DNA from: Armatimonadota bacterium
GTDB lineage: Bacteria; Sysuimicrobiota; Sysuimicrobiia; Sysuimicrobiales; Sysuimicrobiaceae
Reading direction: 5' to 3'
NCBI GenBank assembly: GCA_025060455.1
Contig: JANXBY010000050.1
Span: 1 to 40,410 of the forward strand
Length of the DNA: 40,410 nucleotides
Position 1 is the stretch's first letter. Each line of letters opens with the position of its first letter. Below are positions 3,242-38,935 of this stretch, piece after piece. A model generated the notes under the pieces. That model was given only the letters and a program-made list of their open reading frames with translations, ran no database searches and was not told where the DNA came from. A program made the position numbers and the translations under genes.

Positions 3242-4133
3242 ACGCGTACAGAACGTCTACCGCCAGGTTCACCAAGGTGAACAGGGCGGCAAACACCAGC
3301 ACCGCGCCCTGCACCACGGGGTAGTCGCGAGCCACGATGGCCCCCACCAGCAGGCGCCCCATGCCTGGCCAAGCGAACACCGTCTCCGTGAGGATGGCTC
3401 CGCCCAGCAGGCCTCCGAACTGAAGGCCGATCACGGTCACCACGGGGATCAGGGCGTTCTTCAGGGCGTGCCGGAGGACCACCGCACGGCTGCCGAGCCC
3501 CTTCGCCCACGCGGTCCGCACGTAGTCCTGGTGCAGGACCTCCAGCAGGCTGCTCCGGGTCATGCGGGCAATGATGGCCACCGAGAACGCGGCCAGGGTT
3601 ACCGTGGGCAGCACGAGGTGCGCGGGCGTCCCGTACCCGCCCGCAGGCAGCCAGCGCAGGTGGACGCTGAACAGTAGCATGAGCATCAGGCCTAGCCAGA
3701 ACACGGGGAGGGAGATGCCGGCGAGGGCTACCGTCATCACCAGGTAATCCAGCCACGAGTACTGACGGGTGGCGGACACCACTCCAGCGGCAACCCCCGC
3801 CGCGGTGGCCACCAGGGTGCTGGCCACCGCCAGCTGCACGGTGGCGGGAAGGCGCGCGGCGATCTCCCGTGCCACCGGCTCCCCGGTCACCACCGACCGC
3901 CCCAGGTCGCCCTGTAACAGTCGGCCGAGGAATCGCACGTACTGCACCGGCAGCGGCTGGTCCAGGCCCAGCTGGACCCTCAGCCGCTGGACTTCCTCCT
4001 CGGAGGCCTGCAGCCCCAGGACCAGCCGGGCAGGGTCGCCCGGGACCAGCCGGATCAGGGCGAATACCACCACCGTGACCCCGACCAGCGTCGGGACTGC
4101 CAGGGCCAGGCGGCGCAGGATGTACGCGCCCAA
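3213..4133 (-). CDS. Peptide/nickel-type ABC importer permease (DppB-like)
   Basis: This is the first permease of the same importer. It has 306 residues with the characteristic DppB N-terminus (ILRRLALAVPTLVGVTVVVF followed by LIRLVPGDPAR), about six membrane segments and an EAA-type loop near AWAKGLGSRAVVLRHALKN. The start appears to be a rare TTG at 4133: the preceding in-frame codons offer no ATG or GTG, and the protein begins there as homologues do. A GGAGGTGA stretch overlapping the stop of the binding-protein gene lies about 16 bp upstream, farther than usual, which may fit coupling to translation of the upstream gene. Confidence 0.93.
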   Translation of the reverse strand: MGAYILRRLALAVPTLVGVTVVVFALIRLVPGDPARLVLGLQASEEEVQRLRVQLGLDQPLPVQYVRFLGRLLQGDLGRSVVTGEPVAREIAARLPATVQLAVASTLVATAAGVAAGVVSATRQYSWLDYLVMTVALAGISLPVFWLGLMLMLLFSVHLRWLPAGGYGTPAHLVLPTVTLAAFSVAIIARMTRSSLLEVLHQDYVRTAWAKGLGSRAVVLRHALKNALIPVVTVIGLQFGGLLGGAILTETVFAWPGMGRLLVGAIVARDYPVVQGAVLVFAALFTLVNLAVDVLYAYVDPRIHYG

Positions 4134-4146
4134 CGCGGGCGGCCGG

Positions 4147-5745
4147 TCACCTCCAGTTCACACAGTGGTGGCCCACCGCTGGCTCCTGAGGCTCGCACAG
4201 GGCCGTCCACTTTTCAATGGGGTGGATCAGCACGCCCTCCAGGCTGCGGTGGGTCACCACGTACCACTTCTGGCTCCACAGCCAGATCCACGGGGCTTCG
4301 TTCCAGATGATCTCCTGGGCTTCCTTCAGGAGGGCCTTGCGACGCTCCACGTTGGGCTCCTGGCGCTGCTGCTCCAGCAGCTGGTCCACCCGGGGGTTGC
4401 CATAGAAGGCCGGCCCCAGCCCGCGGGGCGGGTGGCTGGAGGTGTGGAACTGTCCGTACAGGACGCCGTCACAGTCCAAAACCGGCCACGCCCAGCCCAG
4501 GACCAGCATCTGGATCCGCGTGCGCTCCGGGGGCGTCTGGATCATGGCCACGTAGCTGGGCCAGTCCATGGTGGTCACGTTGGCGCGGATGCCCACGTTG
4601 CGGAGCTGGCCCGCGATGGCCTGCGCGAACTGGAAGTCCTGGATGTACCGACCCGTGGGGGTGAAGAAGTCCACCTGGAAGCCGTCGCGGTAGCCCGCCT
4701 GGGCCAGCAGCTCCTTGGCCCGGGTGGGGCTGAAGGGCCAGCCGCCCTCCCGCACCCTGTGGTAGCCGAACATCATGGGCGGACACGGCGAATCCGCCAC
4801 CGTCCCCAGGTCGAACAACACGCTGGCCAGGATGGCCTTCTTGTTCACCGCGTAGTTCATGGCCTGGCGCACCCGCACGTCCTTGAAGGGGCCCCACTGG
4901 GTATTCATGGCCACGAAGATCACGCGGTCGCTGGCCGCCTCCACCACCTTCACCTGCGGGTTGCGGCGCAGGCCCTTCACGTCGGGAGCGGGCGGCAGCA
5001 TGGCCTGGTGTACGTCCCCGGCCAGCACCTGGGTCAGCCGTGTGCCCGCGTCGGGGACCACGCGGAACAGGATCTCGTCGAACAGGGGTTTCTTGCCCCA
5101 GTAGTTGGGGTTGCGCTCCAAAAGAATGGAGTCCCCGCGCCGCCACTCCTTGAACATGTACGGCCCGGTGCCTCCCCCCGCGGGGGCCGACCGCCACCGG
5201 TCACCCGCCCGCTGCACCGCGGCCGGGGACACGATGGCGAACTGGGTGGTGGATAGATCCGCCAGGAAGGTGGGCGTGACCCGGTTCAGCCGGATGCGCA
5301 CGGTTTCCTCGCCCACCGCCTCCACGGACTGCACGGGCTGCACCAGGAACCGCAGGGCCATGGCCACCCTCGGGTCCTTCAACCGCTCTAGGCTGAACTT
5401 CACCGCCTCCGCGTTGAGGGGAGTGCCGTCGTGGAACCGCACCCCGCGCCGCAGGGTGAAGGTGTAGGTGAGCCCGTCGCTGGAGATCTGCCACCGGGTG
5501 GCCAGCCGCGGGACGACCTGCAGCTTGGTGGGGTGCAGGTCCACCAAGGTCTCGAACATGTAGTCCACGATGTTGGCCACGGTGGTCGTGGTCTGTTCGG
5601 CCGGGTCCAGCCGGTCCGCGTCGATGCCGATGGCGATGCGCAGCTGTCTTGGTACCGCCTGGGCCCCCACCGGATCCCCGGCGCCTGCCACCAGGGCGCC
5701 CACCAGCGCGGTCAGCACCAACAGGACAACTCCGTAGCGCCTCAT
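4147..5745 (-). CDS. Family-5 extracellular solute-binding protein (DppA/OppA-like)
   Basis: This is the periplasmic or lipoprotein-type substrate receptor of the peptide-type importer, 532 residues from ATG 5745. An AGGAGG site lies about 7 bp before the ATG; a longer in-frame extension to 5832 has no such site and lacks a signal-like start. The N-terminus RRYGVVLLVLTALVGALVAG is a clear signal peptide. Family-5 hallmarks follow: DADRLDPAEQTTTT, ETLVDLHPT, the signature YTFTLRRGVRFHDGTPLNAE, and FLVQPVQSVEAVGEETVRIRL further on. The gene heads a four-gene operon (binding protein, dppB, dppC, creatininase). Ligand specificity cannot be predicted. Confidence 0.95.
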   Translation of the reverse strand: MRRYGVVLLVLTALVGALVAGAGDPVGAQAVPRQLRIAIGIDADRLDPAEQTTTTVANIVDYMFETLVDLHPTKLQVVPRLATRWQISSDGLTYTFTLRRGVRFHDGTPLNAEAVKFSLERLKDPRVAMALRFLVQPVQSVEAVGEETVRIRLNRVTPTFLADLSTTQFAIVSPAAVQRAGDRWRSAPAGGGTGPYMFKEWRRGDSILLERNPNYWGKKPLFDEILFRVVPDAGTRLTQVLAGDVHQAMLPPAPDVKGLRRNPQVKVVEAASDRVIFVAMNTQWGPFKDVRVRQAMNYAVNKKAILASVLFDLGTVADSPCPPMMFGYHRVREGGWPFSPTRAKELLAQAGYRDGFQVDFFTPTGRYIQDFQFAQAIAGQLRNVGIRANVTTMDWPSYVAMIQTPPERTRIQMLVLGWAWPVLDCDGVLYGQFHTSSHPPRGLGPAFYGNPRVDQLLEQQRQEPNVERRKALLKEAQEIIWNEAPWIWLWSQKWYVVTHRSLEGVLIHPIEKWTALCEPQEPAVGHHCVNWR

Positions 5746-5849: not shown

Positions 5850-7217
5850 GTGGAAGGCGAAAAGCACCGGGGCTGGAGCGGGCTGTCCGGGGACTTGGTC
5901 CGGCGGGCAGCGGAAGGCCGGCCGGTCCGTGTGGGGCTCGTAGGCGCGGGCAAGTTCGGCGCCATGTTCCTGGCGCAGGCGTTGCGCACTCCTGGCCTGC
6001 ACGTCGTGGGCGTGTGTGACCTCTCCGTGGAGAGGGCCCGGGAAAGCCTCAGGCGTTCAGGGTGGCCCGAGGAGCGCTTCGGCGCCCCAGACGCCCACGC
6101 GGCCCTGCGGCACGGCACCACGTGGGTGACGGACGACCCCTTCGAGCTCGTGCGTGCAGAGGGCCTGGACGTGGTGGTCGAGGCCACGGGGTCTGCCCAC
6201 GCGGCGGCCTCCCACGCCCTGGAGGCGATCCGATGGGGCCGGCACGTGGTGATGGTGACCGTGGAGGCAGACGTGCTGATCGGCCCCCTTCTGGCCCGCA
6301 GGGCTCGGGAACAGGGGGTGGTGTACACCCTGGCGTACGGAGACCAGCCGGCGTTGGTGTGCGAGCTGGTGGACTGGGCCCGAGTCTGCGGGTTTCCGGT
6401 GGTGTGCGCGGGCAAGGGAACCCGGTACCGACCCGGATATCACTTCGTCACCCCAGACGAGGTGTGGGAGCACTACGGCTTCACGCAGGAGATGGTGGCC
6501 AGCGGCGATTACAACGCGCGCATGTTCACCTCTTTTCTGGACGGGACCAAGTCCGCCATCGAGATGGCCGCCGTGGTCAACGCTACCGGCCTGATGCCCC
6601 AGCGGCGCGGTCTCAGCTTCCCACCGGCCGGCGTGGACACCCTGGCCGAGGTGTGTCGGCCGCGCCGCGTGGGTGGGATTCTGGAGCACGCGGGTACCGT
6701 GGAGGTGGTGTCCAGCCTGGACCCGCAGGGGCGTTCTGTGCCGGGGGATCTGCGTTGGGGCGTGTTCGTGGTGGTGGAAGCACCGTCGGAGTACGTGGCG
6801 CGGTGCTTTGGCGAGTACGGCATTCCGACCGACTCCTCCGGCCGGTACGCGGCTCTTTACCGCCCCACCCACTGGGTCGGACTGGAAGTCGGGGTGAGTG
6901 TCGCCAAAGCAGCCCTGCGCGGGGAGGCCACGGGCCAGCCGTTTGCCCGGTTGGCGGAGGTGGCTGCCACGGCCAAACGGGACCTGCAGGCGGGCGAGGT
7001 GTTAGACGGAGAAGGGGGGTATACGGTGTTCGGCACGCTCCTTCCGGCTTCGGAGGCGGACCGTTCCGGGGTCCTGCCCGTGGGGCTGAGTTCCGGGGCA
7101 CGGCTACGGGTACCCGTCCGGAAAGGCTCCCTGGTGCGGCTGGAGGACGTGGAGCTGGACGAAGGACACGAGCTCGTGCGCCTGTGGAAGCAGGTGCGCC
7201 AGCTGCCGAGCGGGTGA
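5850..7217 (+). CDS. NAD(P)-dependent oxidoreductase with C-terminal SAF domain (COG4091 / DRL-like)
   Basis: This 455-residue protein has an N-terminal Rossmann fold with the dinucleotide motif VRVGLVGAGKFGAMF, a homoserine-dehydrogenase-like middle and a C-terminal SAF domain (about the last 75 residues, including PVGLSSGARLRVPVRKGS). That layout matches COG4091, annotated as 'predicted homoserine dehydrogenase with SAF domain'. The family also contains the Brucella DXP reductoisomerase-like enzyme DRL, so a role in isoprenoid precursor synthesis is possible but not shown. The start is GTG 5850 behind GGAGGGAGG; the open frame extends to 5649, but that part overlaps the divergent gene and looks non-coding. 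It is followed 55 bp later by the EF-P-like gene. Confidence 0.8.
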   Translation: MEGEKHRGWSGLSGDLVRRAAEGRPVRVGLVGAGKFGAMFLAQALRTPGLHVVGVCDLSVERARESLRRSGWPEERFGAPDAHAALRHGTTWVTDDPFELVRAEGLDVVVEATGSAHAAASHALEAIRWGRHVVMVTVEADVLIGPLLARRAREQGVVYTLAYGDQPALVCELVDWARVCGFPVVCAGKGTRYRPGYHFVTPDEVWEHYGFTQEMVASGDYNARMFTSFLDGTKSAIEMAAVVNATGLMPQRRGLSFPPAGVDTLAEVCRPRRVGGILEHAGTVEVVSSLDPQGRSVPGDLRWGVFVVVEAPSEYVARCFGEYGIPTDSSGRYAALYRPTHWVGLEVGVSVAKAALRGEATGQPFARLAEVAATAKRDLQAGEVLDGEGGYTVFGTLLPASEADRSGVLPVGLSSGARLRVPVRKGSLVRLEDVELDEGHELVRLWKQVRQLPSG

Positions 7218-7244
7218 CCGGGCGCCAGCATACGTCCGTATACT
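7214..7244 (+). promoter_or_regulatory. Possible sigma-70-type promoter before EF-P-like gene
   Basis: A TATACT hexamer (7239-7244) stands out in GC-rich surroundings, with GTGACC (7214-7219) 19 bp upstream as a weak -35. The downstream gene starts at 7273, giving a very short leader. The spacing is longer than ideal. Confidence 0.3.
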
Positions 7245-7272
7245 AGGGGTAAGAAGTGGTGGAGGAGTGCAC

Positions 7273-7848
7273 ATGGTGGTGGCGTCCGAGCTACGCAGTG
7301 GGATGGCCATCCGGGTGGGCGGGGAACTGTTTAAAGTGGTGTCGGCCTCCTACCACGCGGGCGGCGGGCAGATGGGCGGGGTGACCCACGCGAAGCTGCG
7401 CAACCTCCACACGGGCGCGGTGCGAGAGGTGCGGTTCCGCGCGGACGAGACGGTGGAGGACGTGCAGCTGGAGCGGCGGCCCATGCAGGTTCTGTACCGG
7501 GACGCGGAAGCCACGCACTTCATGGACAGCGAGACCTTCGAACAGGTTTCCATCGAGAACCAGCGGCTGGGCCCTGCGGCCGCCTATCTCACGGAGGGGA
7601 GCACGGTACCCGTGGAGTTCTCCGAGGGGCAGGCGGTGGGGGTGGTGTTCCCCGACGTGGTGGAGCTCCAGGTGGTGGAGACCGCGCCGCCCAGCCGGGC
7701 CACAGGCAACGAGAACGTGTGGAAGGAGGCCCGCCTGGAGAACGGGTTGGTGATCCTGGTGCCTCCCTTTATCGCACCCGGGGAGTGGGTGCGGGTAGAG
7801 GTCGCCACCAGCACCTACGTGGAGCGGGCCAAGCGCAAGAAGGAGTAG
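7273..7848 (+). CDS. EF-P-like translation factor lacking the conserved modifiable lysine
   Basis: The 191-residue protein aligns over its full length with elongation factor P, which binds stalled ribosomes at polyproline stretches. Clear EF-P features are KLRNLHTGAVREVRFRADE, VLYRDAEATHFMDSETFEQ, VELQVVETAP and LVPPFIAPGEWVRVEVATS. In EF-P the loop of domain I reads PGKG, and its Lys (or Arg) tip is modified and reaches the peptidyl-transferase centre. Here the aligned segment is GGGQ, so the tip residue is Gln and the loop is glycine-rich. ATG 7273 has GGAGGA about 7 bp upstream; a GTG two codons earlier is possible. It may be a paralogue with a different role. Its stop is 3 bp from the end of the convergent maeB remnant. 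Confidence 0.88.
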   Translation: MVVASELRSGMAIRVGGELFKVVSASYHAGGGQMGGVTHAKLRNLHTGAVREVRFRADETVEDVQLERRPMQVLYRDAEATHFMDSETFEQVSIENQRLGPAAAYLTEGSTVPVEFSEGQAVGVVFPDVVELQVVETAPPSRATGNENVWKEARLENGLVILVPPFIAPGEWVRVEVATSTYVERAKRKKE

Positions 7849-7851
7849 CCG

Positions 7852-8926
<1,075 letters not shown>

Positions 8927-8954
8927 GGCGTGACCTCCGTAGAAGGGGGTGAAA

Positions 8955-9668
8955 ATGACTTCCGCCTTCATTGTGCGCCGCAGCCGCGGGTGTGGAGAGT
9001 CGGTCGCGAGCGCTCTGGCGGCGGAGGAAGCGGAGCCGGTGGAGTGGAAAAGTCCGGGCGTGGAACGTCGTGGAAAGCCTGGTGCGGCGCCCGGGGTATT
9101 GGAGACCTTGCTCCGCGGGCTGCGGGAGTTCCCCGTGGTGCCCGCCGTCCGAAGCCTGGAAGACGTGGAGGAGGCCCGCCGGCGGGGAGCCGCGGCCATC
9201 TTTTTCTTCAAGGGAGACGTGTTCGCGCTCCGGGAGGCTCTCGCCCGCTGCGCGGACTCCGGAGTGCCGGTGTACGTCCACCTGGACCTGGTGGAGGGGG
9301 TCGGGAAGGACGCCGCGGGAATCCGACTTTTGAGGGAGCTGGGGGCAGCGGGGGTGGTGAGCACGCGGGGGCCGCTGCTGCGAGAGGCAAAGGCCAGCGG
9401 CCTGCTGGCGGTGCACCGTGTTTTCATGGTGGACTCGGAAGCACTCCGGACGGGAATCGCAGCCGTGCGGGCGGCCGACCCGGACCTGGTGGAAGTACTT
9501 CCTGGGGTGGTGGTGCCGTACGCGATCCGCGAGCTGCGCGCCTCCTTGCCGCAACCGGTGATCGGGGCAGGGCTGGTGACCCAGGCGGAACAGGTGGCGG
9601 CGATTCTGCGGGCGGGCGCCGTGGGGGTCTCTGCGAGCGCCAAGCGCCTGTGGGGCCTGCGGGGGTAG
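8955..9668 (+). CDS. glpP: Glycerol-3-phosphate-responsive antiterminator GlpP
   Basis: The core from about base 9120 on matches GlpP, the RNA-binding TIM-barrel-like antiterminator that, with glycerol-3-phosphate, lets transcription pass leader terminators of glp genes in Bacillota. Family signatures are VPAVRSLEDVEE, VYVHLDLVEG, GVVSTRGPLLREAKASGLLA, HRVFMVDSEAL, DLVEVLPGVVVPYAI and GAGLVTQAEQVAAILRAGAV. The start is uncertain: GTG 8949 / ATG 8955 has a GGGGGTG site, but the first 30-40 residues have no counterpart in GlpP; GTG 9039 or 9060 would give a family-like N-terminus and leave room for a promoter after the divergent maeB remnant. It precedes the glycerol operon it presumably controls. 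Confidence 0.88.
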   Translation: MTSAFIVRRSRGCGESVASALAAEEAEPVEWKSPGVERRGKPGAAPGVLETLLRGLREFPVVPAVRSLEDVEEARRRGAAAIFFFKGDVFALREALARCADSGVPVYVHLDLVEGVGKDAAGIRLLRELGAAGVVSTRGPLLREAKASGLLAVHRVFMVDSEALRTGIAAVRAADPDLVEVLPGVVVPYAIRELRASLPQPVIGAGLVTQAEQVAAILRAGAVGVSASAKRLWGLRG

Positions 9669-9688
9669 CCTCGAGAGCCCTGGGAGCC

Positions 9689-9717
9689 TTGACGGGCTTA
9701 GGGCTGCGGGCGATAGT
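9689..9717 (+). promoter_or_regulatory. Predicted sigma-70-type promoter of the glycerol operon
   Basis: TTGACG (9689-9694) and GATAGT (9712-9717) are separated by 17 bp, directly after the glpP stop. Transcription would begin near 9724, so the transcript enters the long hairpin at 9763 after about 40 nt. This layout matches GlpP-controlled leaders. Confidence 0.55.
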
Positions 9718-9762
9718 GGTGCTGGTGGTGTAGACATCCCAACCAACGGCGGGAGAGTGAAG

Positions 9763-9810
9763 AGAGGACCCGCTCGACTCCGGAGGAAGCCGGGGTCGAG
9801 TGGGTCCTCT
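9763..9810 (+). promoter_or_regulatory. 21-bp leader hairpin, candidate GlpP-dependent terminator/antiterminator
   Basis: Arms 9763-9783 and 9790-9810 pair over 21 positions with only two G-U wobbles and a 6-base loop. The left arm starts AGAGGACCC and the right arm ends GGGTCCTCT. It lies between glpP and the ugp/glp genes. In Bacillota GlpP acts on such inverted repeats in glp leaders. The bases after the stem (GGCTTT) are only weakly U-rich, so it may act as an RNA-binding site or as the glpP terminator rather than a classic regulated terminator. Confidence 0.6.
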
Positions 9811-9844
9811 GGCTTTACCGGGTCTTAGCCCGATCCGGGCAGTC

Positions 9845-10079
9845 TTGGACAAGGCGAAGGGAGGTGGACCAGCGCGGCGGTGGTGGTGGGTTGCGGTGCT
9901 GGTGAGCTTTGCGCTGACGGCCACGTTGGTGCCGGTGTGGAGGTCGTCGGCGCAGCCGGCCATCGAGGGCCGGCTGGTGATCATCACCCCTGTGGCCCGG
10001 ACGGTCACGGAACCCACGGTAGCGGCCTTCCGGGAGTTCGCCCGGAGGCGCTACGGCGTGGACGTGCAGGTAACCGGAG
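9845..10079 (+). pseudogene. 5' remnant of a family-1 (iron/phosphonate-type) solute-binding protein gene
   Basis: The frame encodes a basic start and a signal-like stretch (VAVLVSFALTATLVPVW), then IEGRLVIITPVARTVTEPTV and AAFREFARRRYGVDVQV. These resemble the first 60-70 mature residues of AfuA/FbpA-like or 2-aminoethylphosphonate-type binding proteins. Homology stops abruptly near 10075, and a permease gene of the same kind of transporter follows within 15 bp in another frame. The simplest reading is a deletion that removed most of the binding protein and whatever lay between. The exact start is unclear; TTG 9845 is one option. Confidence 0.65.
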
Positions 10080-10089
10080 GGCGGTGGCT

Positions 10090-10950
10090 ATGCGGGAGTA
10101 CGCGGTGGTGTCCTACCGCGCGGTGGAGCGCCGGCCGCTGCGGGGCGCGTGGCGAGCCCTGGCGCCCGCGCTGTTCGCGGCGGTGCTGGCGCTGGCGTTC
10201 CTCCCCCACCTGGGCCTGCTGCTGGCGGCGTTGGGGAAGGCGTGGTCGCTGAGCCCGTTTCCCACCCGGTTCACCCTGGAGCACTTCGACCAGGTCCTGC
10301 ACCTCACGCCCACGTACGTGCTGAACAGCCTCCGGTGGGGTGCCCTGGCGGTAGTGCTGATCCTGGTGCTCGGGGTTTCCATCGGGTGGATGCTGGCCCG
10401 CACCTCCGTGCCGGGACGCGACCTCGTGGACTCCGTGGTGACCCTGGTGCTGGCCCTGCCCGGGACCGCGGTGGGCATCGCATACCTGCGGGCGTTTCAC
10501 ACGCCGCTGTGGGGCGTGACCCTCACCCGGTCGTGGTTCGTGATGCCGCTAGTGCTGGCGGTTCGGCGGATGCCGTACACCGTGCGCGCCACCTTTGCCT
10601 CCCTGCTCACCGTACACCGCGCCATGGAAGAGGCGGCGGCCAGCGTGGGGGCATCCAGCTTGCGCACGTTCTTCGACGTGTCGTTGCCGCTCATCTGGCG
10701 CGGCGTGGTGGCCGGAGCGTTGTTCTCGCTGCTCTTTGCCCTGCAGGAGGCCGCGGCCACCATCCTGCTTGTCCTGCCCGGCTGGGAGACCATCACCGTC
10801 GGGATCTTTACGTTCTACACGTCGGGGACCTTCGGCCAGGCGGCGGCCCTGGGGGTGGTGTTGGTCGCCCTGTCGGCGGCCATCCTGTACGCCATCTACC
10901 GGCTCACCGGTGCACGGCTGGGCGGGTTGTTCGGGAGCGGGGGTGCATGA
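10090..10950 (+). CDS. ABC importer permease of the iron/phosphonate type, probably the second half of a larger permease
   Basis: The 286-residue frame has about six membrane segments and an EAA-type loop (AAASVGASSLRTFFDVSLPL). It matches the C-terminal half of FbpB-like Fe(III) or 2-aminoethylphosphonate permeases, which in most species are about 550-residue fused proteins. The start is ATG 10090 with GGAGGG about 9 bp upstream. It follows directly on a truncated binding-protein fragment, and no ATPase or first permease half is present, so it may be a surviving piece of a deleted operon, though the frame itself is intact. It overlaps the HAD gene by 4 bp (ATGA), which suggests that it belonged to this operon before the deletion. 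Confidence 0.75.
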   Translation: MREYAVVSYRAVERRPLRGAWRALAPALFAAVLALAFLPHLGLLLAALGKAWSLSPFPTRFTLEHFDQVLHLTPTYVLNSLRWGALAVVLILVLGVSIGWMLARTSVPGRDLVDSVVTLVLALPGTAVGIAYLRAFHTPLWGVTLTRSWFVMPLVLAVRRMPYTVRATFASLLTVHRAMEEAAASVGASSLRTFFDVSLPLIWRGVVAGALFSLLFALQEAAATILLVLPGWETITVGIFTFYTSGTFGQAAALGVVLVALSAAILYAIYRLTGARLGGLFGSGGA

Positions 10951-11801
10951 GGGGACTGCGCCGGCCCGGCCGCCTGTACCGCGGGTACGCGGTGGACCTG
11001 GACGGGACGGTGTACCTGGGGGAGCGGCTCCTACCCAGCGCCGACCGGGCCATCCTCGCCCTTCGGGCGGCGGGGGCGCGGGTGGTGTTCCTGTCCAACA
11101 ACCCCCTGTACACGCGGGAGGACTACGCGGCGAAGCTCACCCGCCTGGGCATTCCGACAAATCCCGAGGACGTAATTAACTCCTCCATGGTGCTGGTTCA
11201 ACACCTGGTTGCCAGGGCGCCGGGGGCGCGCCTGTTCGTGATCGGGGAGGACTCCGTGAAGGGAGAGCTGCACGCGGCGGGGTTCCGGCTGGTGGAGGAC
11301 CCGAGGGACGTGGACTACGTGGTGGCCTGCTTCGACCGTACCTTTGACTACCGGAAGCTGAAGGTCGGGTTTGACGCCCTGCGGCGGGGCGCCCGGTTCA
11401 TCGCCACCAACCGCGACCCGTACTGTCCGACCCCGGACGGAGGCCTCCCCGACGCAGGGGCGGTGGTGGCGGCTCTGGAGGCGAGCACAGGACGGCGCCT
11501 GGAGGAGGTGGTGGGGAAGCCGTCTCCGGTCATGGCGCGGGTACTGCTGCAGCGGTTGGGCACGCCGCCGCAGGACACCTTGGTGGTGGGAGACCGGCTG
11601 GAGACTGACCTGGCCCTGGGGAAGGCCATGGGCAGCGCCACCGCGGTGGTGCTCACGGGCGCCACCACGCTGGAGATGCTGGAAGGCCACCCCGATCCTC
11701 CGGACTTCGTGCTGACGAACCTCTCAGAGCTTCTCCCGGAAGGAATGGAGGTGCCACAACAATTCCCCGGAGACGGGAAACCACAGGAGGTGAGACCATG
11801 A
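10947..11801 (+). CDS. HAD-IIA family sugar/glycerol phosphatase (NagD/AraL-like)
   Basis: This is a 284-residue cytoplasmic phosphatase of the HAD superfamily, subclass IIA. It shows the nucleophile motif DLDGTVYLGE (about residues 17-26), motif II FLSNNP, the C2-type cap, the lysine motif VVGKPSP and motif IV VVGDRLETDLALGKAMG. The family includes NagD, AraL, p-nitrophenyl phosphatases and glycerol-phosphate phosphatases. Its place between a permease gene and ugpB, with 4-bp overlaps on both sides, suggests it dephosphorylates glycerol phosphate or a related sugar phosphate. The last 20 residues or so are low in conservation and run into the ugpB ribosome site (GGAGGTGAG). Confidence 0.9.
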   Translation: MRGLRRPGRLYRGYAVDLDGTVYLGERLLPSADRAILALRAAGARVVFLSNNPLYTREDYAAKLTRLGIPTNPEDVINSSMVLVQHLVARAPGARLFVIGEDSVKGELHAAGFRLVEDPRDVDYVVACFDRTFDYRKLKVGFDALRRGARFIATNRDPYCPTPDGGLPDAGAVVAALEASTGRRLEEVVGKPSPVMARVLLQRLGTPPQDTLVVGDRLETDLALGKAMGSATAVVLTGATTLEMLEGHPDPPDFVLTNLSELLPEGMEVPQQFPGDGKPQEVRP

Positions 11802-13144
11802 CGCGTCGGTGGGGAGGTGCAGTGTACGCGGCCGTGTTGGCCGCGGTCCTGGTGTTTGGGGCCGCGGTGGGGCGCGCGCAGGCGCCGCGGGTCCAGGTGG
11901 AGTTCTGGCACGCCCTCCGGGGCCCCCTGGGCGAGGCCCTGGAGAGCATTGTGAACGGGTTCAACGCGAGCCAGACCAGCTACCGGGTGAACGCCACCTT
12001 CAAGGGCTCCTACCCGGAGACCATGGTGGCGGCCATCGCGGCCTTCCGGGCGGGCAATGCACCGCACATCGTCCAGATGTTCGAAGTGGGCACCGCTACC
12101 ATGATGGCCGCGCGGGGGGCCATCAAGCCGGTGTACGAGCTGATGCAGGAGACCCGGACCCCCTTTGACCCCAGTGTGTACCTGCCGGCGGTGCGCGGCT
12201 ACTACAGCACCCCGGACGGGAAGATGGTCTCCATGCCCTTCAACAGCTCCACCCCGGTGCTCTGGTACAACAAGGACGCCTTCCGTAGGGCCGGGCTGAA
12301 CCCCGACCGCCCGCCGCGCACCTGGGCGGAGCTGCGGGAGGCCGCCCAGCGGATCCGGGCGGCCAACGCCGCGCCCTGCGGCTGGTCCACCGCGTGGCCC
12401 ACGTGGATCCACTTCGAAAACTTCGGTGCCATCCACGACGTGCCCTTTGCCACCAAGGCCAACGGGTTCGAGGGCACGGACGCGGAGCTGCAGGTGAACG
12501 CCCCCCTGTACGTCCGGCACCTGGAGAACATCGTGCAGATGCAGCGGGAGGGGCTGTTCAAGTACGGCGGCCGGGACGCGGCGGGCGACGCCCTGGGACC
12601 CTCAGGGGAGTGCGCCATGCTCACCGCCTCTTCGGCTCTGTTCGCCCGCTACCAGCGGGAGGCACGGTTCGACTGGGGCGTGGGCTTCCTGCCGTACTAC
12701 GAAGACGTCCGGGGAGCGCCGAAGAACTCCATCATCGGCGGGGCGTCCCTGTGGGTGATGACGTCCCCGCGGCGGACGCCGGAGGAGTACAAGGCGGTGG
12801 CGGAATTCTTCCGGTACATCAGCAACCCGGAGGTGTCCGCCAAGTGGCACATGGAGACCGGGTACATACCCATCACCTTCACCGCCATCCAGCGGGCGAA
12901 GGCCCTGGGATATTACCAGCGCAACCCGTGGGCGGAGATCCCCATCCAGCAGCTCACCCGCACGCGCCCCACCACCAACTCCAAGGGGATCCGCCTGGGC
13001 AACATGCCCGAGATCCGCACCATCCTGTACGAGGAGATCGAGCGGGCGCTGCAGGGGCAGCAATCCCCGAAGGCGGCCCTGGACGCCGCGGTGCGCCGCG
13101 GGAACGAGGTGCTGAGGCAGTTTCAGAGGACCACGGCACAGTGA
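11798..13144 (+). CDS. ugpB: sn-Glycerol-3-phosphate-binding protein UgpB
   Basis: This is the receptor of the glycerol-3-phosphate / glycerophosphodiester ABC importer. It has 448 residues (E. coli UgpB has 438) with a signal peptide ending near GRAQA (residue 28). It carries long UgpB-specific stretches: EFWHALRGPLGEALESIVNG, NGFNASQTSYRV, GSYPETMVAAIAAFRAGNAP, FEVGTATMMAARGAIKPVYE and, near the C-terminus, KWHMETGYIPIT. The start ATG 11798 overlaps the HAD stop and has a strong AGGAGGTGAGACC site. The stop overlaps the following gene by 4 bp, so the genes are tightly coupled. Confidence 0.96.
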   Translation: MTRRWGGAVYAAVLAAVLVFGAAVGRAQAPRVQVEFWHALRGPLGEALESIVNGFNASQTSYRVNATFKGSYPETMVAAIAAFRAGNAPHIVQMFEVGTATMMAARGAIKPVYELMQETRTPFDPSVYLPAVRGYYSTPDGKMVSMPFNSSTPVLWYNKDAFRRAGLNPDRPPRTWAELREAAQRIRAANAAPCGWSTAWPTWIHFENFGAIHDVPFATKANGFEGTDAELQVNAPLYVRHLENIVQMQREGLFKYGGRDAAGDALGPSGECAMLTASSALFARYQREARFDWGVGFLPYYEDVRGAPKNSIIGGASLWVMTSPRRTPEEYKAVAEFFRYISNPEVSAKWHMETGYIPITFTAIQRAKALGYYQRNPWAEIPIQQLTRTRPTTNSKGIRLGNMPEIRTILYEEIERALQGQQSPKAALDAAVRRGNEVLRQFQRTTAQ

Positions 13145-13920
13145 AGGACCCGGTGGGCCAGCCCCGCGTGTGCGCCCACCGGGGCGGCGCGGGGCTGGCT
13201 CCGGAGAACACCCTGGCCGCGTGCCGCCGTTCCCTCCGTGCAGGGGTTCGGTGGCTGGAGGTGGACGTGCGGCAGACCGCGGACGGGGTCCCGGTGTTGA
13301 TCCACGACGAGGCCGTCGACCGCACCACGGACGGAAGAGGCCTGGTACGCCAGATGACGTTCGGGCAGCTCCGCACGCTGGACGCCGGTGGGTGGTTCGG
13401 GGAGAAGTACCGCGGGGAGCGCGTCCCCTCCCTGGAAGAGCTGCTGGAGCTCCTCCTGCAGGACCCCGGCGCGGGCGCTTACGTGGAGGTCAAGGGAACA
13501 GGGCCAGAAGCTGAGCTGCTGACCGGGCAGGTGCTGGAGATGGTGCGCAGGGCAGGCTTGGTGGAGCGGGTCCGGCTCGCCTCCTTCGACGCAGGGCCCC
13601 TCCGGACGGCGGCGCAGGTGCTCCCGGAGATGGTCCGGGTGGCGTTGGAGGAGCCCTTCGACACGGGCGACCCCCTCGAACTGGTCCGCAGCCGACAGGC
13701 TCACGTGTGGGGTCCCCACCACCGTCGGGCCGGCCAGCAGGCACTGGCCACAGCGCACCGCGCGCAGGTGGGCGTCTACACCTGGACGGTGAACGACCCG
13801 CAGGAGGCGGTGCGGCTGTGGCACCGCGGGCTTGGGCAGCACCCGGAGGACGCCGTGGCCACGGACTTCCCGGAGCGCATCCTTGCGACGCTCCGCGAGG
13901 CCGAAACCGGGAGGGTGTAA
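13141..13920 (+). CDS. ugpQ: Glycerophosphodiester phosphodiesterase (UgpQ/GlpQ family)
   Basis: This 259-residue enzyme hydrolyses glycerophosphodiesters to glycerol-3-phosphate and an alcohol. GDPD motifs are present: HRGGAGLAPENT (about residues 13-24), the acidic metal ligands in WLEVDVRQTADG and the catalytic HD in PVLIHDEAVDRTTDGRG. The late motif reads DAVATDFPERI. No signal peptide is visible, so it works in the cytoplasm on imported diesters. It begins at GTG 13141, overlapping the ugpB stop by 4 bp, and lies between the receptor and permease genes, which ties hydrolysis to uptake. Confidence 0.94.
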   Translation: MKDPVGQPRVCAHRGGAGLAPENTLAACRRSLRAGVRWLEVDVRQTADGVPVLIHDEAVDRTTDGRGLVRQMTFGQLRTLDAGGWFGEKYRGERVPSLEELLELLLQDPGAGAYVEVKGTGPEAELLTGQVLEMVRRAGLVERVRLASFDAGPLRTAAQVLPEMVRVALEEPFDTGDPLELVRSRQAHVWGPHHRRAGQQALATAHRAQVGVYTWTVNDPQEAVRLWHRGLGQHPEDAVATDFPERILATLREAETGRV

Positions 13921-13921
13921 C

Positions 13922-14803
13922 GTGCGGCGGTCGTTCTTCCGTGCCCCAGCGCTGCCTTACCTGCTGGTGGCTCCCCAGCTGGTGTTGACCTTGGTCTTCT
14001 TTTACTGGCCGGCCCTGCAGGGGTTGTACCAGTCCCTGCTGATCCAGGACCCCTTCGGCCTGCGCACCTCCTTCGCGGGGCTGGCGAACTTCGCCGCCGT
14101 GCTGGCAGACCCCCTGTACGGCAACGCAGTACGGGTGACCCTGGTGTTCTCCGCGGCGGTGGTGGCGGGGGCCATGGCGGTGGGCCTTGTGCTGGCCACG
14201 GCGGCGGCGCAGCCCCTCCGGGGCGTTCAGGTATACCGGACCATGCTGGTGTGGCCGTACGCGGTGGCACCGGCGGTGGCCGCGGCCTTGTGGCTGTTCC
14301 TGGCGCACCCCAGTGTGGGGATCGTGGGGCGCGCCCTCGTGCGCTGGAGACTGGGCTGGGACTACACCCTGAACGGGACCCACGCGTTGCTGCTGGTGGT
14401 GGTGGCCTCCGTATGGTCCCGGGTGGCGTACAACTTCGTGTTCTTCCTGGCCGGCCTGCAATCCATCCCCAGGTCCCTGCACGAGGCCGCGCAGGTGGAC
14501 GGCGCCACGTGGTTCCAGAGCTTCCGGTGGGTGACGCTCCCCTTGCTGGCCCCCACCACCTTCTTCCTGCTGGTGGTGAACGCCCTGTACTCTCTGTTCG
14601 ACACCTTCGCGGTCATCCACGCCCTCACCAAGGGAGGGCCGGGCAAGGCCACGGAGACCCTGATCTACAAGGTGTACGTGGACGGGGTGGTCAACCTGAA
14701 TCTGGGCTCTTCCAGCGCGCAGTCGGTGATCCTGCTGATCCTGGCGGTGGTGCTGACGAGCTTCCAGTTCCGGTTCCTGGAGAGGCGGGTGCACTACGCA
14801 TGA
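13922..14803 (+). CDS. ugpA: Glycerol-3-phosphate ABC importer permease UgpA
   Basis: This is the first membrane subunit of the Ugp importer (MalF-like), 293 residues with six predicted membrane segments. The start GTG 13922 lies one base after the ugpQ stop, with GGGAGGG overlapping the end of ugpQ. UgpA-like features are LPYLLVAPQLVLTLVFFYWP, LVWPYAVAPAVAAALW, the EAA loop SLHEAAQVDGATWFQSFRWV and the region HALTKGGPGKATETLIYKVY. The stop overlaps ugpE by 4 bp (ATGA). Confidence 0.95.
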   Translation: MRRSFFRAPALPYLLVAPQLVLTLVFFYWPALQGLYQSLLIQDPFGLRTSFAGLANFAAVLADPLYGNAVRVTLVFSAAVVAGAMAVGLVLATAAAQPLRGVQVYRTMLVWPYAVAPAVAAALWLFLAHPSVGIVGRALVRWRLGWDYTLNGTHALLLVVVASVWSRVAYNFVFFLAGLQSIPRSLHEAAQVDGATWFQSFRWVTLPLLAPTTFFLLVVNALYSLFDTFAVIHALTKGGPGKATETLIYKVYVDGVVNLNLGSSSAQSVILLILAVVLTSFQFRFLERRVHYA

Positions 14804-15726
14804 GTTCCCCCGGACCCCTCCGGAACCCTCACGGCGCGGTGGCGCTGCCCGCGCCCCAGGCCGAGGAGCTGCGGTGGCGGTTGCGGCGGAGCCTTCGGTT
14901 CGTGCCGGCCCACCTGGTGCTACTGGCAGGGGTGGCGCTGTTCGTGTTCCCCGTGTACGTGGCCTTCGTGGCGTCCACCGCGGACCTCCCGGAGGTGACC
15001 TCGGGGACGATGCGGCTGCTGCCCGGCCCGCACGCGGCGGAGAACTACTGGAAGGCTTTTGTGGCGGGCACGGGGGAACGCATCCGCGGCGTGCCCATGG
15101 CGCGGGCGATGCTGAACAGCCTGGCGGTGGCCCTAGGGGTGGCCCTGGGGAAGATCGCCCTGTCGCTCCTGTCCGCGTACGCCATCGTGTTCTTCGACTT
15201 CCGGTGGCGGGCGCCGGCCTTCTGGCTCATCTTCCTCACCCTGATGCTGCCCGTGGAGGTCCGCATCATCCCCACCTACAAGGTGGCCTCGGACCTGGGG
15301 CTGGTGAACACCTACACGGGCCTCATCCTCCCCCTGACGGTGTCCGCCACGGGCACGCTGCTGTTCCGCCAGTTCTTCCTCACGGTGCCCGATGAGCTGG
15401 TGGACGCCGCGAAGATCGACGGGGCGGGGCCGCTGCGGTTCCTGTGGAGTGTGTTGCTGCCGGTGTCCCGTACCACCGTGGCCGCCCTGTTCGTGGTGCT
15501 GTTCATCTACGGCTGGAACCAGTACCTGTGGCCACTGCTGATTACCACCTCGCTGGAGAAGGAAGTGGTGGTGGTGGCCATCACCAAGATGATCGGGACG
15601 GGAGAAGCCTTGGTGGACTGGCCGGTGATCATGGCCAGCGCGCTGCTGGCCCTTCTGCCCCCCACAGTGGTCATCGTGGCCATGCAGCGGTGGTTCGTGC
15701 AGGGCCTCACCGAGACGGAGAAGTAG
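14800..15726 (+). CDS. ugpE: Glycerol-3-phosphate ABC importer permease UgpE
   Basis: This is the second membrane subunit of the Ugp importer (MalG-like), 308 residues. About 40 hydrophilic residues precede the first membrane segment ([20 protein letters not shown]), a longer cytoplasmic tail than in E. coli UgpE. UgpE/MalG features include the EAA loop [40 protein letters not shown] and [14 protein letters not shown]. The start ATG 14800 overlaps the ugpA stop. No ugpC ATPase follows; glpK comes next, 2 bp later, so the importer must borrow an ATPase encoded elsewhere. Confidence 0.95.
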
Positions 15727-15728
15727 CC

Positions 15729-17228
15729 GTGCGGTACATGGGCGCCATCGACCAGGGGACCACCAGCACGCGCTTCCTGGTGTTCGACGAACGGGGGCGG
15801 GTGGTGGCCGCCGCGCAAGAGGAGCACCACCAGATCACCCCCCAGCCCGGCTGGGTGGAGCACGATCCCGTGGAGATCTGGGAGCGCACCCGGGCTGTGG
15901 TGCGGAAAGCCTGCGCACAGGCAGGCCTGCGCCCGCAGGACCTGGCCGCGGTCGGGGTCACCAACCAGCGGGAGACCACGGTGGTTTGGGAGCGGGCCAG
16001 CGGGCGGCCGGTGGCAAACGCGGTGGTGTGGCAGGACACCCGCACCGACGCCCTCTGCCGGGAGCTCAGCCGGCCGGGTGGGGTCGACCGGTTCCGGGAG
16101 CGCACGGGGCTGCCGGTGGCCACGTACTTCTCCGGGCCGAAGCTGCGGTGGATCCTCGACCACGTCCCAGGGGCGCAGCAGGCCGCGGAGCGCGGGGAGT
16201 TGCTGTTTGGAACCGTGGACACGTGGCTTGTGTGGTGGCTCACGGGCGGGCCTGCGGGCGGGCTTCACATCACGGACGTCACCAATGCCAGCCGGACGCT
16301 AATGATGAACTTGCACACCCTGAACTGGGATCCGGAAATCCTGCGCGAGCTGGGGATCCCGCGGGCGGTGCTGCCCCAGATCCGGCCCAGCAGCGAGGTG
16401 TACGGAGAGGCCACGGTGGAAGAACTCCGGGGAGTCCCGGTGGCCGCGGACTTGGGCGACCAGCAGGCCGCGCTGTTCGGGCAGGCGTGTTTCGAGCCCG
16501 GGCAGGCCAAGAACACGTACGGGACCGGCTGCTTCCTTCTGCTCCACACGGGGGACCGGCCTGTGCCCTCACGGCACGGGCTGCTGACCACGGTGGCGTA
16601 CCGGCTGGGCACCAGTCCCCCTGCGTACGCCCTGGAGGGCTCTGTGGCCATCGCGGGGGCCGCGGTGCAGTGGCTGCGGGACAACCTGGGCCTGATCCGG
16701 GCTTCCGCGGAGGTGGAGGAGCTGGCTCGCGCGGTGGAGGATAACGGTGGGGTGTACTTCGTGCCCGCGTTTTCCGGGCTGTTCGCCCCGTACTGGCGCA
16801 GCGACGCCCGCGGCGTCATCGTAGGGTTGACGCGCTACGCCCACCGGGGCCACATCGCCCGCGCCGCCCTGGAAGCCACCGCCTACCAGACCCGCGACGT
16901 GCTGGAGGCCATGGTGCAGGACAGCGGGGTGCGGCCGCCGGCCCTGCGGGTGGACGGGGGGATGGTGCGCAACGAGCTCCTCATGCAGTTCCAGGCGGAC
17001 GTGCTGGGAATTCCCGTGGTCCGGGCGGCGGTGCAGGAGACCACGGCCCTGGGCGCTGCCTATGCCGCCGGGTTGGCCGTGGGAGTCTGGAAGGACCTGC
17101 GGGAGCTCCGGGAGCTCTGGGCGTCGGATCGCACGTGGCAGCCGGCTATGCCCCCGGACAGGCGCGAGGCGCTGTACCGCAGGTGGCTGCAGGCGGTGGA
17201 GCGCAGCTTCGGGTGGCTGGAGGAGTAG
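15729..17228 (+). CDS. glpK: Glycerol kinase
   Basis: This is an FGGY-family kinase making glycerol-3-phosphate from glycerol and ATP, 499 residues (E. coli 502). It shows the glycerol-kinase start [66 protein letters not shown] and [17 protein letters not shown]. The start is GTG 15729, six bases after a GGAGAAG site; ATG 15738 is an alternative. In many Bacillota kinases a histidine in the HFFG-like segment after SSEVY is phosphorylated by PTS HPr; here that segment reads [20 protein letters not shown], with no histidine, so PTS control of this type is unlikely. It is directly followed by glpD. Confidence 0.97.
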
Positions 17229-18920
17229 ATGGTACCGACACCCTCCCGTCAGGAAGCGCTGGATGCGCTGGCCGGGGGTGTGGACGTCCTGGTGGTCGGG
17301 GGCGGGATCACCGGTGCCGGGGTCGCCCTGGACGCCGCGGCCCGGGGCTACCGCGTGGGCCTGGTGGAGCGCAGAGACTTTGCCTCCGGGACCAGCAGCC
17401 GGTCCACGCGGCTGGTGCACGGCGGCATCCGCTACCTGCCGCAGGGGCACGTGGGGCTGGTGCGGGACGCGCTGCGGGAGCGGCAGCTGTTGTTTCGGCT
17501 GGCACCCTACCTGGTCCGCCCGCTGGGTTTTGTGGTGCCGCTGTACCGAGGGGCCCGCAGGCCCTTGGGCATGCCGCTGCCGGCCCTGTTGCGGCCGTTG
17601 GCGCCCTTGGGGGTGCGGCTGGGCCTGGCCGCCTACGACCGGTTCAGCCGGGACCCGCGGCTCCGCCACCGGGTGCTGTCGCCGCAGGAGGTCGCGCAGC
17701 TGGTGCCGGACCTGCGGACCGAAAGCCTGCAGGCCGCGTTCCTGTACTGGGACGGACAGACGGACGACGTGCGGCTGACGCACGCGGTACTCGCCACCGC
17801 GCGCGCCACGGGCGCTTGGACGGTCAACTACGCGGAGGTGGTGGGGTTCGAGCGGAGCGCGGGCCGGATCCGGGCGGTGGGGGTGGTGGACCGGCTCACG
17901 GGTCGCACCCTGGAGGTACCCGTGCGGTGGGTGGTCAACGCCGCCGGGATCTGGGCGGAGCGGGTGGCGAACCTGGCAGGGGAGGCTCCCGTCCGGATCC
18001 GGCACAGCAAGGGGGTACACCTGGTGCTGCGTCCGGAAGCGGTGCGGGCGTCTTCCGCGGTGGTGATCCCGGAGACGGACGACGGCCGGCTGGCGTTCCT
18101 GGTGCCGTGGCGGGGCAGGCTCGTGCTGGGCACCACGGACGAACCCTACGAAGCCGATCTCGACGAGCCGCCGGTCACCCCGGAGGACGCCTGCTACCTG
18201 CTGGACCACGCCAACCGGTACCTCCGGACGGGGCTGCGGGCCGAGCACGTGACCGCGGTGTACGCGGGCATCCGGCCCCTGGTGAGCCGTCCCGGGGTCT
18301 CCACCGCCGTCCTGAGCCGAGACCACGTGGTGGTGGCGTCTGAAAGCGGCTTGGTCACGGTGACGGGAGGCAAGCTCACCACGTACCGGCGCATGGCCCA
18401 GGACACCGTGGACGCCGTGGTGCGGCTGGAGGGCGTGCGGAGGGCCTGCAGGACCGAGACAGCGGTGCTCGCGGGGACGGAGGGGATGGAGGAGGCCGAG
18501 CGGCAGCTCTCCAACAGCCCCCTGGACCCGGACCAGCGCCAGCACCTGCTGGCCACGTACGGGTCTGCGGCCATGCCGGTGCTCGGGTTGGTCCACCAGC
18601 GGCCGGAGCTGGCCGAACGGCTGGCCCCCGGGCTCCCCCACGTCGCCGCAGAGGTGGTGTACGCGTGCCGGTGGGAGTACGCACAGACGGTGGTCGACTG
18701 CCTGTACCTGCGCACGCGGCTGGCGGTGCTGGACGGTGCTGCGGCGGACGCAGCCGCTCCCCAGGTGGCCCAGCTCATGGCGAGGGAGCTCGGGTGGACG
18801 CCTGCGGAGGTAGCCCGGCAGCTGGAGCAGTACCGGGTCCACAGGTCCCGGGATGAGGGCTGGCGGCCGGGTAGGCGGGAGGGCGTGGAGCTGCAGGCCG
18901 CGACCGGATCACGCACCTGA
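17229..18920 (+). CDS. glpD: FAD-dependent glycerol-3-phosphate dehydrogenase
   Basis: This is the membrane-associated enzyme oxidising glycerol-3-phosphate to DHAP and passing electrons to quinone, 563 residues. An N-terminal FAD motif VLVVGGGITGAGVALDAAAR is followed by GTSSRSTRLVHGGIRYLPQG, typical of GlpD. Later come WVVNAAGIWAERVANLAG, PWRGRLVLGTTDEPYEADLD and VYAGIRPLVS. The C-terminal alpha-helical domain holds ACRTETAVLAG and VAAEVVYACRWEYAQTVVDC. ATG 17229 follows the glpK stop without a gap, so translation is coupled. It is the last intact gene of the glycerol operon. Confidence 0.97.
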   Translation: MVPTPSRQEALDALAGGVDVLVVGGGITGAGVALDAAARGYRVGLVERRDFASGTSSRSTRLVHGGIRYLPQGHVGLVRDALRERQLLFRLAPYLVRPLGFVVPLYRGARRPLGMPLPALLRPLAPLGVRLGLAAYDRFSRDPRLRHRVLSPQEVAQLVPDLRTESLQAAFLYWDGQTDDVRLTHAVLATARATGAWTVNYAEVVGFERSAGRIRAVGVVDRLTGRTLEVPVRWVVNAAGIWAERVANLAGEAPVRIRHSKGVHLVLRPEAVRASSAVVIPETDDGRLAFLVPWRGRLVLGTTDEPYEADLDEPPVTPEDACYLLDHANRYLRTGLRAEHVTAVYAGIRPLVSRPGVSTAVLSRDHVVVASESGLVTVTGGKLTTYRRMAQDTVDAVVRLEGVRRACRTETAVLAGTEGMEEAERQLSNSPLDPDQRQHLLATYGSAAMPVLGLVHQRPELAERLAPGLPHVAAEVVYACRWEYAQTVVDCLYLRTRLAVLDGAAADAAAPQVAQLMARELGWTPAEVARQLEQYRVHRSRDEGWRPGRREGVELQAATGSRT

Positions 18921-38692: not shown

Positions 38693-38734
38693 CAAAACCA
38701 GCGGGAGCCACCCTAAGGACGGGATGGCTCCCGC
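38693..38734 (-). terminator. T-box-regulated terminator before ilvB
   Basis: On the minus strand GCGGGAGCCA ... TGGCTCCCGC form a 10-bp stem (38725-38734 with 38701-38710) with a 14-base loop, followed by TGGTTTTGT. The 5' arm overlaps the sequence used by the alternative antiterminator that includes the T-box motif. Confidence 0.85.
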
Positions 38735-38935
38735 GGTACCACCTTAGTTCCGAGCTCGTGAAGAACTCGGCCCTCGTTTGCCGTTCGCGCCGGCCGCGTG
38801 CCGGACTACTGTGCTTCGCCCGGCGGGCTCAGGGACGAGGTTCAGCGCCGGACTCCACCGGGTCACACCCCTCCCGGCTCTCTGGGAGAGCCCGCAGCGC
38901 CTACTGCTTCCCTTCCTCGCCTGGATGATTCACTT
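38702..38935 (-). promoter_or_regulatory. T-box riboswitch controlling the ilv-leu operon
   Basis: The minus strand carries the T-box signature AAGGTGGTACCGCG (38732-38745) just before the terminator. Upstream lie a stem-III-like hairpin CCGAG..CTCGG (about 38748-38768), a CAGTAG element followed by GTCCGGC..GCCGGC, and a Stem I region with GCAGTAGGCG, a distal AGAGAGCCGG..GGGTGTGACCCGG part and, on its 3' side, GAACCTCGTCC. By comparison with known T-boxes the specifier should lie in that last segment; CUC (Leu) is the best candidate and overlaps GUC (Val). Uncharged tRNA would favour readthrough into ilvB. The exact boundary of Stem I is estimated. Confidence 0.88.

Follow-up and report, generated by a model that had tools for sequence, protein, structure and literature searches.

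A probable GlpP-controlled transcription attenuator before a combined glycerol operon in a lineage outside Bacillota

Does the RNA between glpP and the glycerol genes behind it control whether those genes are transcribed? The locus lies in a window of 40,410 nucleotides, the whole stretch of DNA that was analysed; the genome, of 2.26 Mb, is in 80 contigs, and the window is one of them. A preliminary description had read a promoter and a long hairpin behind glpP as a GlpP antitermination site. Our analysis agrees. We put at about 85% the probability that this RNA leads a glycerol/glycerol-3-phosphate operon at its 5′ end and acts as a transcription attenuator controlled by GlpP. Three lines of evidence support this reading: the element is conserved, its stems still pair where their sequence has changed, and it is associated with glpP; GlpP binding and termination are predicted from the sequence.

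GlpP is a TIM-barrel protein. The window encodes this glycerol-3-phosphate responsive antiterminator at 8949-9668 on the plus strand (PF04309, 172 bits; start codon uncertain), and its PDB relatives by sequence are 3kts and 1vkf. The host is outside Bacillota, because its named relatives are Armatimonadota bacterium isolate QQ_201912_bins_187, an uncultured bacterium MAG, and Bacterium HR32; the earlier placing in Bacillota was wrong. On sequence grounds, the locus looks like that of a GlpP leader. The GlpP gene lies directly upstream, and a promoter and then a hairpin come before glp genes.

The genes 3′ of the hairpin are co-oriented on the plus strand. They are the remnant of a substrate-binding protein gene (9878-10075), which matches residues 5-70 of a protein intact in relatives; an ABC permease (10090-10950; PF00528); a HAD-family phosphatase (10929-11801; PF13344 and PF13242); a UgpB-like substrate-binding protein (11798-13144; PF01547); a glycerophosphodiester phosphodiesterase, GDPD (13114-13920; PF03009); two UgpA/UgpE-like permeases (13901-15726; PF00528 in two open reading frames); glpK for glycerol kinase (15714-17228; PF00370 and PF02782); and glpD for glycerol-3-phosphate dehydrogenase (17229-18920; PF01266 and PF16901). 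The starts of the HAD, GDPD, UgpA/UgpE-like, and glpK genes are uncertain. The targets had been called broader than the glpFK and glpD targets of Bacillus. This did not stand. Compared with the available text of PMC9604022, the genes are predicted counterparts of the usual GlpP regulon (uptake, GDPD, glpK, and glpD) joined in one operon.

The first gene of the operon (9878-10090) is itself a remnant. It contains residues 5-70 of a 381-amino-acid substrate-binding protein and then runs directly into permease sequence. The gene is intact in the related loci L019 and L020. About 2.9 kb of L019 is absent from the window: the rest of this gene, an ATPase-like frame, and upstream permease sequence. 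The frame of the permease at 10090-10950 is open upstream in L019, and the window permease may correspond to the second half of a longer protein. The window's genome contains no other close copy of the substrate-binding protein (best other match, 34% identity), so the remnant reflects a deletion or an assembly join.

The sigma70-like promoter lies at 9689-9717 on the plus strand. It contains TTGACG (9689-9694), a 17-nt spacer, and GATAGT (9712-9717), as first described. A sigma70 scan of 6000-18000 retrieved this site alone. Shuffled sequence yielded 0.5 ± 0.8 sites, so the scan by itself leaves chance possible. TTGACG or TTGACC, 17 to 18 nt, and CATAGT lie 5′ of the leader in L019, at the first site of L020, in L021, and at the HAD-glpD site of genome G007. 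L009, L010, L014, and the second site of L020 showed no comparable promoter; their best sites had 7 to 8 of 12 matches. The transcript would start near 9724.

The terminator-type hairpin lies at 9763-9810 (plus strand). Its arms (9763-9783 and 9790-9810) are 21 nt each, are 90% complementary, and enclose a loop of 6 nt; RNAfold pairs all 21 positions. It begins about 39 nt past the inferred start and 95 nt past the glpP stop codon. The hairpin by itself has an energy of −44.5 kcal/mol. Folding of the 157-nt leader gave a z score of −4.1, with 0/200 shuffles as stable. A 21-bp hairpin about 40 nt into the transcript, as previously proposed, is thus confirmed by RNAfold and the shuffles, with the start inferred. 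The lack of a U-run noted at the time is also real: the stem is followed only by the degenerate U-tract GGCUUUACC (9811-9819, plus strand), and the terminator scan did not list the hairpin. Efficient intrinsic termination here is not assured, because the U-tract is poor. Five of the six relatives have a U-run of 3 to 5 at the hairpin end, the exception being L020 with UCUUGACUUU.

The regulatory part of the leader, unremarked in the preliminary description, appears to lie just upstream. It comprises a predicted antiterminator stem and two repeats, all on the plus strand. The 5′ strand GGCGGG (9748-9753) is predicted to pair with CCCGCT (9769-9774), and the latter strand belongs to the 5′ arm of the terminator as well. 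The tandem repeat (9752-9766) consists of GGAGA (9752-9756) and AGAGA (9761-9765), held by the 15-nt loop and the end of the stem. The second repeat overlaps the terminator hairpin at its base. We take the two repeats as the candidate contact site of GlpP. The upstream stem-loop has an energy of −8.2 kcal/mol, versus −44.5 kcal/mol for the hairpin. Forced into the upstream stem, the leader at 9724-9830 folds at −41.3 kcal/mol, versus −61.6 kcal/mol when free. The forced fold is thus less stable than the free one by about 20 kcal/mol. On these predictions the hairpin is the default and the other fold needs help. An alternative fold that excludes the terminator is thus predicted in the window, and its pairing is kept across loci.

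These features suggest the following mechanism. Transcription would start near 9724. Without glycerol-3-phosphate, the stable hairpin at 9763-9810 would form, and most polymerases would stop. With glycerol-3-phosphate, GlpP would bind the two GAGA-type repeats in the loop of the 9748-9753/9769-9774 stem. Bound GlpP would stabilize the antiterminator, and the 5′ arm of the terminator would then be occupied at its base. RNA polymerase would then continue into the transporter, HAD, GDPD, glpK, and glpD genes. Glycerol-3-phosphate is presumably the signal in this host, and the hairpin presumably terminates despite its poor U-run.

The preliminary description had proposed searching relatives for the hairpin before glp genes. 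It was found in the window's order, before glpF or glpD in Bacillota, and next to glpP in Streptomyces, with stem pairing kept despite changes in sequence. In the order, six genomes have a similar leader 3′ of glpP, three of them from the same genus and three from other families. The stems include GGGCGGG/CCCGCTC (L020), GAGCGGG/CCCGCTC (L021), GCGGG/CCCGC (L014), GGTAGGAC/GTCCTGCC (L009), and TGGTGGGAC/GTCCTGCCG (L010). The inner pairs are invariant within the genus. In alignment A3, the stems of the genus and those of L009/L010 are in different registers. Across 32 hand-picked leaders, the repeats align and the stems do not; the model was therefore limited to eight order-level leaders, and pairing was assessed by permutation free of any alignment.

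This covariance model, R1, was built from the eight leaders of seven genomes and run over 43 genomes of the order. At E < 1e-6, R1 matched 8/8 genomes with a GlpP over the cut-off versus 0/35 others (Fisher, 7e-9); this cut was set post hoc, and 7 of the 8 glpP genomes supplied training sequences. G007 is the independent test, because the other seven were training sources. It has a match of 4.6e-13 before HAD-glpD, on a contig other than that of its glpP. At E ≤ 1, weak matches appeared in 18/35 genomes without glpP, the best at 5.6e-4. That match, G024:C33, was rejected as a leader because the repeats were absent on reading. In the window's own genome, a search for further copies gave only short or weak matches, and the exact pattern retrieved the window site alone.

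Some genomes carry more than one leader. G014 has a second site (R1, 3.1e-8) before a second transporter operon, and the second site of L020 likewise precedes such an operon. The glpD-side leader of G014 (L010, minus strand) is divergent from glpP, with a stem read by eye as GCAGGA/TCCTGC and an R1 score of 18.8 bits. The leader on G007:C23 is also divergent from glpP and lies before a GH31 gene; its stem, read by eye, is GGCAGGAC/GTCCTGCC, and R1 gave 17 bits. This 8-bp-stem leader (L130, minus strand, near 3791-3866) leads into a GH31 glycosidase gene and a hydroxyisobutyrate-dehydrogenase-like gene. The pair recalls sulfoquinovose use, which presumably could release glycerol.

We looked for the element more widely in glpP loci. 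A first terminator scan gave many false stems, and a repeat-anchored detector was used instead. Of 75 loci entered, one (L066) had no GlpP match and was dropped. The remaining 74 came from the window's order, plasmid-collection records, a low-GC order, other genomes, and Bacilli. L011-L013, L015, and L016 were left out as duplicates or because a contig end truncated them, and L017, L018, and L030-L043 because they fell under the PF04309 cut-off. Two RGAG repeats with a flanking stem and a hairpin were present in 38/74 loci and absent as defined in 36/74; the repeat spacing is imposed by the detector pattern, and the positives include weak cases such as L047 and L065. The leader was downstream of glpP in 35 of the positives and upstream in 3. 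Positives were found in the window's order (6/7), L022-L029 (2/8), L044-L047 (3/4), the G064 order (8/19), L068-L073 (3/6), and Bacilli (16/30). The sole locus of the window's order missed by the detector was L014, a variant with CGAG.

The genes behind these leaders differ. Cytobacillus spongiae has leaders before glpF and before glpD. The glpP locus of Acetoanaerobium noterae is positive, and the next gene is glpF-like by eye. Paenibacillus cellulosilyticus has a leader before a glpD-like gene. Enterococcus gilvus is positive, and its next gene encodes an SDR oxidoreductase and is not a glp gene. A Streptomyces clavuligerus plasmid (L071, near 4300-4360) carries a leader 3′ of glpP. It has a 7-bp stem, AGTTACT/AGTAACT, flanking AGAGACCAGAGAAC, and is followed by SDR, FAD-oxidoreductase, and FGGY-kinase genes. 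This locus is possibly a GlpP regulon in an actinomycete. The repeat-anchored detector did not find the pattern in several named glpP records, among them those of Listeria, Vescimonas, Planococcus, and Klebsiella. The gene row in Planococcus lenghuensis is glpP, substrate-binding protein, HAD, and ABC ATPase. TTAATA recurs about 7 to 14 nt 5′ of the first repeat in leaders of Bacilli and the G064 order (e.g., L092, L198, and L055). It was not seen in five listed leaders of the window's order.

The antiterminator stem is not accidental; its pairing is specific to each locus. Among 30 nonredundant leaders, preselected for a stem of at least 3 bp, own-locus stem pairing was 13.1 versus 9.2 across loci (0/10,000 permutations). 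The comparison was rerun with 39 leaders selected solely for their repeats and hairpin, because the smaller set had required a stem beforehand. Own-locus pairing was then 12.3 versus 9.5 across loci (0/20,000 permutations). The repeats also follow glpP. They were present at 35/113 U-tailed hairpins at most 400 nt downstream of glpP versus 19/926 elsewhere in the same loci; 11 of these 19 entries (9 sites) were judged GlpP-type leaders by eye, and the count was kept at 19.

The glpD leaders of Bacilli link the element to the presence of glpP. For this comparison, 77 genomes were hand-picked. In 45 of them, roughly one for each family, a GlpP scored over the cut-off; the other 32 had none. The latter comprised 20 of 56 genomes without a match and 12 with weak matches only. 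PF16901 gave 64 glpD matches, and 63 upstream regions were used, the partial match of G430 being left out. The element was present in 24/45 glpD leaders of glpP genomes versus 1/18 in genomes without glpP (Fisher, 4e-4; all Fisher values given here ignore kinship among the genomes). At three thresholds, the positives were 24, 23, and 19 of 45 with GlpP and 1, 1, and 1 of 18 without. The element was thus missing in 21/45 glpD leaders of glpP genomes, and in 26 at the strictest threshold. Three positives were shared with earlier loci (L191 = L092, L205 = L101, and L220 overlapping L084), and without them the count was 21/42. By strand, the element was found in 25/63 sense versus 0/63 antisense regions.

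The one exception is G416, which has the element before glpD and no GlpP by a second search either; that search is a weak control, as it also missed the partial GlpP of G007. In the relative G448 (L216), the order is leader, glpP, glpD. In G416 (L166), the stretch behind the leader, where G448 carries glpP, is about 320 nt long and contains no long frame. This frame-poor stretch suggests that G416 lost its glpP.

Could the hairpin have another role? It might be only a constitutive terminator of glpP, with the operon promoter elsewhere. Its place 95 nt past the glpP stop codon would suit this, and hairpins often end genes. We consider it improbable, since the hairpin is separated from glpP by a promoter-like site that has a counterpart in the leaders of four relatives, and since the element also precedes operons located elsewhere than behind glpP: HAD-glpD of G007, the second sites of L020 and G014, and glpD in Bacilli. 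The preliminary description had itself named an unconserved hairpin, or one acting merely as the glpP terminator, as grounds against its proposal; the hairpin is conserved and is found beyond glpP. An attenuator would end glpP transcripts too, and the two roles may coexist. A DNA operator for a repressor is a far poorer candidate still. A long, near-perfect palindrome can serve as a protein site, but the signal at glpD leaders is strand specific and the stem sequence varies among loci while its pairing is kept.

Control of mRNA stability is about as improbable as the glpP terminator. Here GlpP and a 5′ stem-loop would protect the message, with little termination, and the weak U-tract of the window is in keeping with this. 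GlpP reportedly has a dual role, in antitermination and mRNA stability, at B. subtilis glpD, going by the title of a 1996 paper by Glatz. The review PMC7430163, in its available part, also states that GlpP stabilizes glpD mRNA. Stability by itself, however, needs no alternative stem that excludes a terminator-type hairpin, and the short U-run in five of the six relatives likewise argues for termination. GlpP-controlled attenuation remains the preferred reading.

GlpP antitermination is known; what is new is this site, in a lineage outside Bacillota. At the gathering cut-off, Rfam 15 has no family at 9660-9880, in 12 glpP loci, or in another 20 loci, which include 17 regions upstream of glpD. 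At lax thresholds, the window leader gave only sub-cut-off matches, mostly to microRNA hairpin families. The T-box family, RF00230, has no match at the leader; the only match over the cut-off in the window is a T-box leader at 38712-38926 on the minus strand (95.6 bits; cut-off, 93). Among titles and abstract openings, a scope outside which the primary B. subtilis papers fell, no description of a tandem-repeat antiterminator was found. PMC9604022 refers to a "GlpP binding site" in its supplement. The repeats may well have been noted already in the primary papers or in that supplement.

We rate the chances as slightly better than even that these leaders form a non-Rfam RNA family whose members occur in three or more lineages of phylum rank, among them that of the window, Bacillota, and Actinomycetota. 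It would have a short antiterminator stem, a loop mostly of 11 to 17 nt, and two RGAGA-type repeats starting about 7 to 10 nt apart. GlpP would read the repeats single-stranded. The second repeat would be the terminator base, so that binding itself blocks termination. If true, the GlpP regulon could be searched for by this definition, with targets such as transporter operons, HAD-glpD, and the GH31 operon. The stem-and-repeat pattern, rare without glpP, is a concrete RNA target. It can find GlpP-controlled genes in uncultured lineages and opens RNA recognition by GlpP to direct test.

How does this leader compare with known systems? A conditional terminator is said to lie before B. subtilis glpD (title of Holmberg and Rutberg, 1992). 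The available text of PMC9604022 and PMC7430163 describes GlpP with glycerol-3-phosphate as the antiterminator of the B. subtilis glp genes, which binds the antiterminator. As far as the text of PMC9604022 goes, the glpD 5′ untranslated region makes other promoters glycerol inducible, and induction of PglpD requires glpP. Like the glpD, glpFK, and glpT leaders given there, the window has GlpP, a promoter and then a terminator-type hairpin in the predicted 5′ untranslated region, and glp targets. Set against these published descriptions, it differs in its host outside Bacillota, its GC-rich 21-bp hairpin, and its poor U-run. It also differs in that a single operon combines the genes for uptake, GDPD, the kinase, and the dehydrogenase.

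The predicted mechanism resembles that of ANTAR proteins such as EutV, in which a protein-stabilized antiterminator with two repeated recognition sequences overlaps the terminator (PMC3369931, available part). ANTAR sites are two small hairpins with hexanucleotide loops, whereas in the window a single stem presents both repeats within its 15-nt loop or at the loop's margin, and the protein is not of the ANTAR kind. TRAP and HutP recognize short NAG-type repeats of leader RNAs, as outlined in the available part of PMC7430163, and GlpP would do so here. TRAP reads 11 triplets and HutP reads two clusters of three; both proteins are unrelated to GlpP, and the likeness of the repeats is an analogy only. 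T-box leaders (RF00230) share the mutually exclusive terminator and antiterminator. The T-box is a tRNA-sensing RNA of about 215 nt, unlike the window leader.
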